49,951 bases of DNA from NCBI GenBank assembly GCA_944392465.1, contig CALXWR010000005.1, positions 1-49,951 of the forward strand, read 5' to 3'. Origin of the DNA: an uncultured Clostridia bacterium. Lineage in GTDB: Bacteria; Bacillota; Clostridia; TANB77; CAG-508. The notes under the pieces were generated by a model. The model did not search any database. It was not told the DNA's origin and was given only the letters and a program-made list of their open reading frames with translations. The translations under genes and the position numbers were made by a program. This document shows positions 5,545 to 14,906 of this stretch, piece after piece (the stretch's first letter is position 1; every line of letters starts with the position of its first letter).

Positions 5545-8040
5545 ATGAAATATGATGTTGAACTTTTATCTCCTGCTCGGAGATTTTGAATGTATAAAAG
5601 CAGCTGTTCAAAATGGTGCAAATAGTGTATATTTTGGTGGAAACCTGTTTAATGCTAGAGCAACTGCCACAAATTTTGATTTTGAAGAACTTGAGAAAGT
5701 TATAAATTATTGTGCTTTAAGGAATGTAAAAACTCATCTTGCTTTAAACATACTTATAAAAGATAGTGAATTTAAAGATGCTGTTTTACTTGCAAAAAAA
5801 GCTATAGAACTAGGCATAGATGCTTTAATTATTCAAGATATTGGTCTTGCTAAATTTATAAAAAATCTTTTTCCAAATATTCCTATACATGCTAGTACTC
5901 AAATGACGATTCACAATCTAGAAGGTGTGCAACAGTTAGAAAAGCTTGGATATTCTAGAGCTGTACTGTCTAGAGAACTTTCTCTTCCAGAAATTGAATT
6001 TATAACACAAAATTCAAATATTGAAATAGAAACTTTTGTACATGGTGCCCTTTGTATATCGTATTCTGGTCAATGTTTGTTTTCTAGTATGGTTGGTGGA
6101 AGATCTGGAAACAGAGGTAAATGTGCTCAGCCTTGTAGACTGCCTTATGAATTAATAGAAGAGCAAACTAATAATAAAAAAATAATAGAGCATAAAATTG
6201 ATAAGGGTTATCTTATAAGCCCAAAAGATTTATGTTCATTAGAATATATCCCAGCACTTATTAATGCTGGTGTAAAGTGTTTTAAAATAGAAGGAAGATT
6301 AAAATCACCTGAATATGTTGCAACCGTTACTAGAATATATAGAAAATATATTGATATTGCTTTAAGTGGAACTACATATAATGTTGACATTGAGGATGTA
6401 CATGAATTAAAACAAATTTTTAATAGAGGTGGATTTTCATCTGGACATCTAGATAATCATGCTAATCACAATTTGATTTGCAAAGAAAAACCCAATAATA
6501 TGGGAATATATATAGGAAATGTTGCTGGATATAATAAGATTAAAGGACATATAAAAATACTTTTAAATAAAGAATTAGGTATTGGAGATACTATTAATTT
6601 TGAAAACGAAAATACTAGATATACTGTTTCTGAACTTATGCTTAATAATACTAACCTTACCTATGCTAAGAAACGGAGAAAAGGTTATTATTGGAAGAAT
6701 GAAAGGACATATTCATTTAGGTGATAAAATATATAAATTGTCTAGTAAAAAGCAAATTGAAAAAGCAAAATTTTCATATAATTCTGAAAGCAAGAAAATT
6801 CCTCTAGGCATAAAAATTATAGCAAAAAAAGGAACTAATATTTCCGCAAATGCTTATGTATGTAATCATATGAGAAATAGCATTTTTAATAATATTTCTG
6901 TAAATTATGAAAGCAAAATAGTTCCAGAAAAAGCTTTAAAAAGTCCTACTAATGAAGAACGAATAATTTCGCAGTTAACTAAAACCACTAATTCCCCTTT
7001 TGAATTTGAAAAGATAAAAATAGAAATGGATAACGATATTTTTATTCCAGGAATTAAAGAAATAAATGAAATTAGAAGAGTTATTCTATCTCAAATAGAA
7101 AATATTATTATTTCTAGAATTAAAAGAGACACAAATAGTACAGCAGATGATAAAATAGAACAATTATTAACTTGTGAATATAATAACAATTTGTCTAATA
7201 CTCATTTAAATAATACTACAAGACATATATCAATTTATTTAAATGAAATCCATCCTGAATTTGATTATACTAAGCTTTCAAAAGAATATATTTCAAGTGT
7301 ATATATACCTTTGAGGCATTTAAACAATAAAAATTATATTAATCAAATAAGACAAATTACCGAAAATTTTAAAACTTACATATATATGCCTGCTATAGCT
7401 AAAACTAATTATAAAAATATAATAAAACATAGTTTAGACATTATGATAAACAAATATCATATATCTGGATTTATTATATCTAGTCTTGGTGATTTTGTAT
7501 TATTAGATAATTATAAAGACGACTACGAATTTATAGGTAATTTTTCACTAAATGCTTTTAACCAAATAAGTGTAAATTCATTATCAGATTTAGGATTATC
7601 AAAAATAACACTTTCACCAGAATTGAATTTAAATGATATAAATTATATTGAAAAAACAAAAAAGGCTAATATTCCTTTAGAATTAATAGTATACGGAAAC
7701 ACACCTGTTATGAAAATGAACTATTGCGTTCTTCGGAAATAGTAACAAATGCTATCCTGAATGTAAAATGAGATGCAAAACGCTATCTAATAAATATTAT
7801 CTAAGAGATAGACTTGGCTTTAATTTTAGAGTTTTACCAGACAACATTCAGACAGTAACAACAATTTTTAATAGTAAAATCACTTGTATTACAGATATAA
7901 AAACTAATATAAATTCTTTTAGAATAGATTGTATAGATGAATCAATTGATGAGATAAATTCTATTGCAAAAGCTACATTTTTTGGTGAAAGCTTAGAAGG
8001 AAGGCAGTATACAAGAGGCAATTTGTACAGAGATGTTTAA
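5545..8040 (+). CDS. U32 family peptidase, three +1 frameshifts at CGG
   Basis: An 830-aa U32 peptidase once three single-base +1 shifts (5578, 6674, 7734) are applied. ATG 5545 has AGGAG 8 nt upstream. It starts MKYDVELLSPAGDFE, the conserved U32 N-terminus, but only after the first shift. The U32 core includes ALCISYSGQCLFSSMVGGRSGNRGKCAQPCR and KIEGRLKSPEYVA (about residues 165-260). A C-terminal collagenase-like part ends in a Cys cluster (YCVL-GNSNKCYPECKMRC, spanning shift 3) and GESLEGRQYTRG. U32 proteins include putative collagenases and tRNA/cofactor hydroxylation factors; the exact role is unknown. Without the shifts translation stops after 13 codons. The three pieces are collinear with no lost residues. 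Confidence 0.88.
5578..5580 (+). other. In-frame CGG, inferred +1 recoding site 2 (U32, first)
   Basis: Codon 12 from ATG 5545 is CGG, followed by A. Skipping C5578 reads GCT-C-GGA-GAT, giving SPAGDFE. In frame 0 a TGA stop comes two codons later. Confidence 0.85.
6674..6676 (+). other. In-frame CGG, inferred +1 recoding site 3 (U32, second)
   Basis: AAA-C-GGA-GAA: skipping C6674 continues into KGEKVIIGRMKGHIHLGD. Frame 0 runs only 16 more codons, to a stop at 6724. Confidence 0.85.
7734..7736 (+). other. In-frame CGG, inferred +1 recoding site 4 (U32, third)
   Basis: CTT-C-GGA-AAT: skipping C7734 gives YCVLGNSNKCYPEC and reaches the true stop at 8040. In frame 0, TAG follows one codon after CGG. 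Confidence 0.85.
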
Positions 8041-8103
8041 TTAGTTAAAAAAGCTAGAGTTTAAAGGAATGTAAAATTTTAAAAACATATAATTTAAAAA
8101 TAT

Positions 8104-8356
8104 AGCATTTAAAAAACTAGAATTAAAAAAAGCAAGAAGAAATTTTTCAAAAAGTGAAATTAAACATGGTTTTTGAAAGTATTTGTGCATAGAGATTATT
8201 TTGAAATTTTGTTAAGGCGTCTCACCTACTAAGGTGAGAGTGCCAACAAAATTTCATTATAAGCTCTTGCTACAAATAGCTTGAAGGACATGTTAATTGA
8301 GCTTTTTTAAAAATTCTTCTTGCTTTTTTGATAAATTCTACAATTTAAGAAATGCT
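8104..8356. repeat. 253-bp imperfect palindrome, rod-like RNA or mini-element
   Basis: The gap between the convergent U32 and RNHCP genes (8041-8393) holds one large inverted repeat centred at 8230. AGCATTT (8104-8110) pairs with AAATGCT (8350-8356). Inward, matching arms include AAGCAAGAAGAA with TTCTTCTTGCTT, AACATG with CATGTT, and TGAAATTTTGTT with AACAAAATTTCA. The GC-richer head is TCTCACCT-ACTA-AGGTGAGA (8220-8239). Arms of about 125 nt are interrupted by small bulges. It could be a structured ncRNA, a miniature inverted-repeat element, or an oversized bidirectional terminator. No ORF is seen. Confidence 0.75.
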
Positions 8357-8393
8357 TCTTACTATTCTAAATTAAATTAAATAATTAAATTAC

Positions 8394-8705
8394 TTAAATT
8401 TGCTTACTACTAAGCTCTATTATTAAATCCATATTATCATCTTTTGCTGCTTTGTTTTTTCTAATAGCTCCACATTTTTTGCATTTATATATTATCACAT
8501 AACCTTTTTTACTATCTATTTCTAATGAGACTGGCTCTAAATCTCCATGACATTCTTCCATTCTATCCCCTGGATTTATGTCTACATGTTTTGAATGTAA
8601 ACATTTGGGGCAATGGTCTCTGCAAGAATATCCTAATTTCGGAACTTTTTTTCCACAATTATCACATATAAACTCTTCATCTATTTCAGTAAATCTTTTT
8701 TCCAT
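8394..8705 (-). CDS. RNHCP domain zinc-binding protein
   Basis: A 103-aa protein with two or three zinc-ribbon-like Cys clusters: CDNCGKKVP (residues 14-22), CRDHCPKCLHSKHVD (28-42) and CKKCGAIRKNKA near residue 79. This arrangement matches the RNHCP family (named after an RNHCP-like motif), whose function is not established. The ATG follows a weak AGGAG. The gene is compact and lies 70 nt downstream of the nucleoside kinase, so it is probably in the same transcript, ending at the palindrome. Confidence 0.75.
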   Translation of the reverse strand: MEKRFTEIDEEFICDNCGKKVPKLGYSCRDHCPKCLHSKHVDINPGDRMEECHGDLEPVSLEIDSKKGYVIIYKCKKCGAIRKNKAAKDDNMDLIIELSSKQI

Positions 8706-8775
8706 TTTTTGCTCCTATTTATTTTAATATTGCTTTTCTTGTTGTGTATATCTTTACATTAATCAGCATTTATTT

Positions 8776-10365
8776 TTATTGTACATCAAATATACTTCCT
8801 CCTATAAACTCTCTTATTAGGGAATTTTTAGGTATATATTCATCGTCTATATCATCAAAATATTTTAATAGTTCACATAAACTTTGTGCTTCTGAATATT
8901 CGGGATGAGTATTATCGATCTCTTTTAGTAGTGGTAGAGCATATTTTTTTAGTACTGATATTTCATATATTAATGATGTATTAAACATACTATCTGCATC
9001 TTCTTGAAATGGATATATATAGCTTTCTTCTCCTTTATTAACCATTTCCCAATTTTCTAATGTATGAAGTGCTTTATATCCTCTAAAGTTATTATCTCTA
9101 ACTATTCTACGTATTAATCTTGTATCTGTTGTGGAAATTCTATTATAGTAATCTATGTTTAGAACTGTTAATGCACTAATATATATTTTATATTTTTGCT
9201 CTTTTGGTATTGCTTCTGTTAATTTATCATTTAAACAATGGATTCCTTCTATAACTAATATCTCATTGTTTCTCATTCTCATTTTATTACCCTTATATTC
9301 TTTATGTCCTGTTTTAAAGTTAAATGTAGGTAAATCAACTTCTTCTCCATTTAGCAATTTTGTTAAGTGATCATTAAATAATTTCAAATCTATTGAATCC
9401 AATCTTTCAAAATCATATTGACCATTTTCATCTTTTGGAGTATTTTCTCTTTCAACAAAATAATTGTCTACAGATATTGTAAGTGGCTTAATTCCATTTA
9501 GCTTTAATTGTATTCCTAATCTTTGTGCAAATGTAGTTTTTCCTGATGATGAAGGTCCTGCTATTAATATTATTTTTATATTTTTTCTTTTTACAATTTT
9601 ATCTGCTATATCAGATATTTTTTTCTCATGTAATGCTTCTGCAAGTAAAATTAGTTCTTTTGATTTTCCTTCTTCTATCTTTTTATTTAGTTTATATATT
9701 GTATTTACATTTAATACTTTATATATATCATCATAATCCTCTAATGTTTGTAGTAGTTTTTTTGTTTCTTTATATTTATCTAATTTATATGGTGCTTTTT
9801 TATCTGGATATCTTAATAAAAATCCATCATGATATTTTACTATATCAAATATCTTTATGTATCCTGTAGATATTGGCATAACTCCATAAAAATAGTTGTA
9901 ATAATTCTCGCAGAAATATAATGAAACTTCATCTTTATATTTATTATCTAGTTGTAATATTCCTCTTAATGTTTTTTCTCTTTCATAAAATTTTTCTGCT
10001 TCTTCTTTTGTCATTTCTATTTTTTTTATTTTCAAATTGCTTTTTACTATTTCTGTCATCTCATTTTTTATGTTTTCAATCATTTCGTTTGTAACTTTCA
10101 TATTATCTACATTACAAAATATTGAATTTGAAAGCTGACAATTTACTGTAAGATAAGCTTTTGGATATACTCTATTAAAAGCCATCCCCATTATATATAG
10201 AATTCCTCTTTGATAAACTCTTCTTCCATCTTTTGTAGTAAGATCTATTGGAACTACATCATCTAAATTATCCACTTCTTCATTTAATGATTTAATTTCA
10301 TTTTTATATTTACAAGCAAGAATGTTTTTTTCCTTGTCATCTCTAAATTTTTCTATTGCTAACAT
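8776..10365 (-). CDS. Nucleoside (uridine-type) kinase with N-terminal ThrRS-like domain
   Basis: A 529-aa two-domain protein. The N-terminal half (about 1-255) resembles the TGS/SAD region of threonyl-tRNA synthetase fused to kinases of this group. The C-terminal half is a uridine-kinase/phosphoribulokinase P-loop domain: Walker A GPSSSGKTTFAQRLG (near residue 271), DNYFVERENTPKDENG and the lid-like TTDTRLIRRIVRDN. It likely phosphorylates uridine/cytidine or a related nucleoside; specificity is not visible. ATG 10365 follows GGAGG. The order mutS, kinase, RNHCP is collinear on the minus strand, but the hairpins at 10445-10520 separate it from mutS. Confidence 0.85.
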   Translation of the reverse strand: MLAIEKFRDDKEKNILACKYKNEIKSLNEEVDNLDDVVPIDLTTKDGRRVYQRGILYIMGMAFNRVYPKAYLTVNCQLSNSIFCNVDNMKVTNEMIENIKNEMTEIVKSNLKIKKIEMTKEEAEKFYEREKTLRGILQLDNKYKDEVSLYFCENYYNYFYGVMPISTGYIKIFDIVKYHDGFLLRYPDKKAPYKLDKYKETKKLLQTLEDYDDIYKVLNVNTIYKLNKKIEEGKSKELILLAEALHEKKISDIADKIVKRKNIKIILIAGPSSSGKTTFAQRLGIQLKLNGIKPLTISVDNYFVERENTPKDENGQYDFERLDSIDLKLFNDHLTKLLNGEEVDLPTFNFKTGHKEYKGNKMRMRNNEILVIEGIHCLNDKLTEAIPKEQKYKIYISALTVLNIDYYNRISTTDTRLIRRIVRDNNFRGYKALHTLENWEMVNKGEESYIYPFQEDADSMFNTSLIYEISVLKKYALPLLKEIDNTHPEYSEAQSLCELLKYFDDIDDEYIPKNSLIREFIGGSIFDVQ

Positions 10366-14643: not shown

Positions 14644-14782
14644 GCCAAACTTGTCACCAAAAGGGACAGGCTCTTTTGTGCCAGACTTGTCATCAATAGG
14701 GACAGACTCTTTTGTGCCAGACTTGTCATCAATAGGGACAGACTCTTTTGTGCCAGACTTGTCATCAATAGGGACAGACTCT
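14644..14782 (+). repeat. Four tandem 36-bp REP-like units
   Basis: Units start at 14644, 14680, 14716 and 14752 (the last incomplete). Each has the form GCCAGACTTGTCATCAATAG then GGACAGACTCTTTTGT. Units 2-4 are almost identical and unit 1 has a few substitutions. The same element occurs in pairs with 36-nt spacing at 14848, 24237, 46428 and 47803. It occupies the miaB-sleB gap (14570-14908) together with the inverted pair at 14848-14906. Confidence 0.88.
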
Positions 14783-14847
14783 ACTCAGTTATAATAGATT
14801 TTCTTTTAGTAGCCTGTTATTAAAAGTGATATAGATAAATTTAAGGT

Positions 14848-14906
14848 ATAGTCTGTCCCTAAAAGTGACATAAATGGCACTAAAGAGCCTGTCCCCTAAA
14901 CTGACA
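14848..14906 (-). repeat. Inverted pair of REP-like units
   Basis: Two 36-nt-spaced copies (GTCTGTCCCTAAAAGTGAC and GCCTGTCCCCTAAACTGAC) in the orientation opposite to the tandem array at 14644. The pair ends 3 nt before the sleB-like stop codon, so it may act in 3'-end formation. Confidence 0.82.

Follow-up and report, generated by a model that had tools for sequence, protein, structure and literature searches.

ERIC and similar MITE-like palindromes are non-coding and lineage-specific, ERIC being 127 bp long, and they affect transcripts near genes (PMC10969869, PMC2759123). RAYTs go together with pairs of inverted repeats that have material between them (PMC2817692). In turn, template switching between the arms of a palindrome is known both to homogenise the arms and to bring about spacer inversion (PMC8604942, PMC8794818). 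Here we describe a dispersed palindromic repeat of one Clostridia family, previously undescribed, starting from a copy in the window, that is, the whole 49,951-nt stretch of DNA analysed.

The copy of the window is an imperfect palindrome at 8104-8356, delimited from the sequence, its folding and its match to its own reverse complement, and it was taken as a whole without strand. Its arms start with AGCATTTAAAAAACTAG at 8104 and end with AAATGCT at 8356. The conserved core (8148-8309, + strand) was recognised by covariance model R2 with 110.2 bits (E 1.8e-22), and it also scored 54.1 bits on the - strand because it is nearly palindromic. On the + strand, the core is enclosed by a left terminal arm (8104-8147), copy-specific in sequence as are the stems of the family, and by a right terminal arm (8310-8356) that pairs with the left one apart from small bulges, both assigned from sequence and folding. 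Within it lies a conserved internal loop, also read on the + strand, whose 5' side (8170-8179) is TTTTTGAAAG in the window copy vs. GAATGGAAAG in most of the family and whose 3' side (8279-8287) is GCTTGAAGG vs. GCTTGACCGA. The apical hairpin TCTCACCT-ACTA-AGGTGAGA (8220-8239, + strand; sequence and folding) constitutes the G+C-richer cap TCTCACCTACTAAGGTGAGA. The region 8090-8370 folded on the + strand with -97.8 kcal/mol, compared with -47.3 (sd 4.7) for its shuffles (z -10.7; none of 200 shuffles as good), and on the - strand with -85.2 kcal/mol (z -9.5). At the DNA level, 78% of 8126-8329 matched its own reverse complement, and no ORFs of at least 60 aa were found inside the palindrome.

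The gap is convergent because the flanking ORFs end at 8040 (+ strand) and 8394 (- strand). The first is the last fragment of a U32-peptidase gene (5552-8040, + strand) and the second an RNHCP-domain gene of 103 aa (8394-8705, - strand), both identified by ORFs and domain matches. The U32-peptidase gene is split in three ORFs, possibly as a pseudogene arisen by mutation or through an assembly error, and its orthologues in relatives border the same gap. The imperfect 253-bp palindrome with a G+C-richer cap and no ORF, placed by the original prediction in a convergent gap, was therefore found as described, with a fold beyond that of all shuffles. The same prediction had named the lack of both further copies and covariation as the sign of chance A+T-rich pairing; many copies and strong covariation were found. 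The genome is indeed A+T-rich, but the two z-scores, the copies in many genomes and the covariation refute such pairing, whose probability we consider negligible.

The family has ten copies, including that of the window, in a 1.34-Mb Clostridia MAG from a gut bacterium. Eight of them are 87-94% identical to the copy of contig C2, while the window copy is the divergent one (about 71%) and is closer to copies of the relatives G020 and G013 (75-76%) than to its sister copies (69-72%). The common form in the host genome reads AAAAAAnACTATACAATTTTTAG...TAAAATTTTACTAG...CTAGTAAAATTTTA...AAAAATTGTATAGTnTTTTTT. With the covariance model, the family was found in 16 of 30 genomes of the same genus. Single genomes gave as many as 33 matches, some of these counts being inflated because a near-palindromic copy may be matched once on each strand. 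A second covariance model detected it order-wide in 55 of 238 genomes, all but one of which belong to the same family, and these represent 15 of 40 genera. Exact-pattern matches among named species genomes came from uncultured Clostridia MAGs only. The arm pattern gave zero matches in plasmids, phages and IMG/VR viral contigs, and a phage or plasmid origin was rejected on this basis; six IMG/VR matches to the apical-loop pattern failed the covariance model. No Rfam match at the gathering score was obtained for the family.

The core is about 160 nt long and is bounded by an A-tract and a T-tract, followed by the copy-specific terminal stems. In other species it reads AATATGGAATGGAAAGTGATTTGA...GGTAGGGAATCTC(loop)GAGGGCGCTACC...AAAATCAGCTTGACCGACATATT. 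It has two internal loops with almost no variation, GAATGGAAAG/GCTTGACCGA and GGGAAT/GGGCGC, and both can be recognised in other genera despite differing helices. Tandem G-A pairs in the internal loop are only suggested by its sequence, and a kink-turn reading, also considered from the sequence, was abandoned since the three-base bulge is at odds with it. A subfamily (L180, L190, L193-L195) differs in its apical domain (ATGGAAAGAGTTCATC...GATGGAAGGGTGCCAT), and one core type stands in place of the other at an orthologous locus (L154 vs. L190).

The terminal stems vary among copies yet are self-complementary, the mean arm-match score being 19.8 within a copy and 6.95 between copies (permutation maximum 10.3). 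Their uniqueness suggests that they might derive from inverted duplication of host DNA. However, GC[CA]A is a frequent start of the stems, and their divergence at orthologous loci is gradual; these features speak for turnover. About 10 of 34 copies (among them L163, L173, L174, L180 and L186) also have, tens of bases beyond the palindrome, a second outer inverted repeat of 17-41 bp, mostly locus-specific and often perfect. In genome G023, several copies (L156, L160, L162, L166, L168 and L185) have common outer inverted repeats (GTTACAATTCACGGCTT), as though a larger terminal-repeat element carried the palindrome.

The covariation score was 0.154 for 13 copies (0.072 when shuffled) and 0.317 for 39 copies (0.116 when shuffled; best slid control, 0.084), and in the latter set 32 of 59 pairs had changed on both sides. 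In addition, G-U cells outnumbered A-C cells in the core (46 vs. 17, counted in related sequences without correction for kinship), an excess that is only suggestive of RNA-level selection on that strand. The palindrome thus combines covarying helices with conserved unpaired motifs, as expected of a structured functional RNA, and the rod-like ncRNA of the original prediction stands with respect to structure only, on the covariation, the nearly invariant internal loops and the predominance of G-U over A-C cells on one strand. It must be noted that template switching can also yield covariation and has to be considered here, since it is known to homogenise arms and to invert spacers. At several orthologous loci, the core and its flanks are in opposite relative orientation (L139/L140, L143/L150, L145 and L146 vs. 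L149, and L147/L157), and the stem of one locus has diverged with matched changes in both arms (GCCAATGAGTAGCTC to GCCAATAAGTAGTTC); the inverted cores and the matched changes fit template switching. If the covariation were merely the footprint of this process in decaying palindromes, with nothing selected, perfect fast-changing arms and centres inverted in place would be its natural products. However, template switching would erase asymmetric internal loops, which were found nearly invariant, and we hold that explanation to be very improbable. Template switching leaves the conserved asymmetric loops unexplained.

Presence and absence of the palindrome were compared at orthologous sites. The gap orthologous to that of the window has other hairpins in the close relatives G006 and G008, and the sites of the C2, C6, C33a, C33b, C3 and C18 copies, where recovered in close relatives, are without palindrome. 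The L144 locus has a full copy in G020, a centre-deleted copy in G019 and G029, only a short palindrome (AGCCAATAATAAACGTTATTATTGGCT) in G007 and none in more distant species. These differences and the centre-deleted forms indicate that copies arrive, decay by central deletion and disappear. Insertion polymorphism at orthologous sites, by which MITEs are recognised, is thus present in the family, and together with the dispersed copies it gives good support to the palindromic mini-element that had been among the first suggestions for this sequence, next to a putative double-stranded RNA precursor that RNase III would cleave.

Other hairpin families were also observed. A second palindromic family (B) has the same plan, with a core CTTAAGGTGGGGACCAACAAGT...ACAGTTTGTACGATGTTGGGGGCC within copy-specific terminal stems, at loci L205, L206, L211, L219-L222 and, in the window-orthologous gap of G024, L067. 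Two sub-threshold Rfam miRNA matches in family-B hairpins were dismissed, and nothing above threshold was obtained for this family. A third hairpin family (C), TTGTATAGGAAAAATCGACTTTTT...CGATTTTTCCTATACAACAAGGTTAGG, was represented by L052 (G010), L055 (G005) and L072 (G028), all in the window-orthologous gap, and the hairpin family in this convergent gap differs by species.

With respect to gene context, 33 of the 59 classified copies were between tandem genes, 20 between convergent genes and 6 between divergent genes, these counts being approximate as the loci are not fully independent. Consequently, 53 of the 59 are downstream of at least one gene. A fixed orientation relative to neighbouring genes was not found among the copies. 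In 9 of 13 palindrome-free orthologous gaps, folding revealed a compact hairpin that outdid all of its shuffles, such as ATGCCAATGGGGACAGACCCCTTTGGCATTTTTT at the site of the window copy in G008, and so the palindrome occupies sites where relatives often keep a terminator-like hairpin. The consensus scan of 7700-8800 found no intrinsic terminator, understood as a G+C-rich stem immediately followed by a T-run, and promoter-like matches around the window palindrome were at chance level only. Because the scan gave no terminator score, a role at transcript ends is deduced from position; it would be the most likely function of the palindrome.

The same data bear on whether the copies might be free-standing structured ncRNA genes, i.e., a multi-copy sRNA acting in trans. 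The strong covariation and the conserved loops in a rod-like fold would suit such genes, as would the positional conservation of some loci between species. Nevertheless, they would have to be reconciled with zero Rfam matches, chance-level promoter-like matches, variable orientation and frequent centre deletions, and with a family that is missing from many species of the genus and whose sites are empty in close relatives. We regard a trans-acting sRNA as improbable.

The window also encodes a Y1 (IS200-like) transposase (46527-47345, - strand) that resembles REP-associated tyrosine transposases in its domain profiles and flanking repeats. It scored 60.3 bits with Y1_Tnp (cut-off 23), being the sole Y1_Tnp match in the genome, and 64.9 bits with REP_Tyr_transpos NF047646, below the NCBIfam cut-off of 80, and it is therefore designated RAYT-like and not an equivalog. 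Repeat matches placed a left flanking repeat at 46457-46483 (- strand) and a right one, inverted relative to it, at 47805-47831 (+ strand). This repeat, with a 36-bp period, had 59 matches in the genome at up to 2 mismatches. The locus accordingly has the arrangement that defines RAYT/REP systems, a Y1 gene with flanking inverted repeats abundant in the genome. RAYT-type repeats are found beside 8 of the 10 host copies of the palindrome: five copies sit within inverted repeat pairs and three more have a repeat on one side, one of these at a contig end. No matches to the repeat were found beside the window copy (8104-8356) or the C3 copy, nor was it observed with the copies of most other species. 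In the relative G008, the palindrome at the site of the C10 copy is shortened and lacks RAYT-type repeats, which indicates that the palindrome may have been resident at this site before them. A further group of inverted RAYT-type repeats (GGGACAGGCTCTTTTGTGCC...) was observed at 14652-14906 of the window, where there is no palindrome.

These observations raise the possibility of a purely selfish, non-autonomous mobile palindrome without host function, whose hairpin would matter as DNA, as a substrate of the Y1/RAYT or another transposase, and whose 3' bias would only reflect tolerance. High and uneven copy numbers, gains and central deletions are consistent with it, as are the RAYT repeats beside most host copies and the single RAYT-like gene with the same inverted repeats. 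However, an element acting only as DNA would need neither asymmetric loops conserved across genera nor an excess of G-U over A-C, and relatives have terminator-like hairpins at the same sites. We consider such a selfish element a serious candidate, although rather unlikely.

The explanation that we favour, at about even chances, is a family-specific ERIC/MITE-like palindrome located mostly at 3' gene ends, where it would act as a two-way transcript-end hairpin with template-switched arms and selected core loops. Under this explanation, copies would have spread into the gaps between genes, for the most part past the 3' end of one gene or two, and the palindrome probably took over the role of the terminator-like hairpin that relatives often have at such sites. 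Transcription from either side would then produce a long hairpin ending or protecting the transcript. The complementarity of the arms would be kept, and the centre flipped, probably by template switching within the palindrome during replication, and selection, most likely acting on the RNA, would maintain the asymmetric core loops. The recent spread in the host genome may have accompanied that of RAYT repeats, possibly with mobilisation by the RAYT. A more speculative reading, which we consider unlikely, is that of a family-specific structured RNA cassette whose two loops are a putative protein-binding site and which stands at transcript ends in either orientation within locus-specific stems, where it flips and is exchanged in place; it would represent a new class of mobile 3'-end modules that work in both directions.

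The combination of a persistent RNA-like core with stem turnover and centre inversion offers a natural system in which selection on RNA structure can be separated from template-switch mutation as causes of covariation. In this regard, the family calls for care when RNAs are sought by covariation. A gut clade that is largely uncultured also gains a repeat family not described before, and with it a possible case of mobile hairpins replacing terminators.

Among known systems, the RAYT/REP elements, REPINs and BIMEs share with the host genome the single Y1 gene and the scattered inverted repeats that flank it. However, these repeats merely flank eight sister copies, and the palindrome is a separate and larger unit which, in the window, also occurs free of them. 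Bidirectional intrinsic terminators share with the palindrome the position between convergent genes, the hairpin, and the A-tract and T-tract flanking the core, but the palindrome is far longer, forms a repeated family, has conserved internal loops and has no consensus-scan score. With the hairpin evolution by template switching described previously (PMC8794818, PMC8604942), it shares the homogenised arms, the concerted changes of both arms and the inverted spacer; in those cases a few bases were inverted, whereas here the inverted centre is a long conserved core that recurs at many loci. MITEs are likewise short, non-coding and multi-copy with terminal inverted repeats, but those of the palindrome are copy-specific and not shared. 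No consistent target-site duplication was seen by eye in the flanks of the copies, and no autonomous partner sharing the ends of the palindrome was detected. ERIC, BOX, RUP and Correia elements, with which no relation in sequence would be expected, resemble it in being short, non-coding, intergenic, present in tens of copies, lineage-specific and foldable as RNA. Unlike them, the palindrome has stems that differ between copies and a core subject to inversion in place, and neither a target duplication nor a terminal repeat constant among copies was seen. Taken together, the habit of the palindrome is ERIC/MITE-like, and its stem turnover and in-place inversion are unusual.
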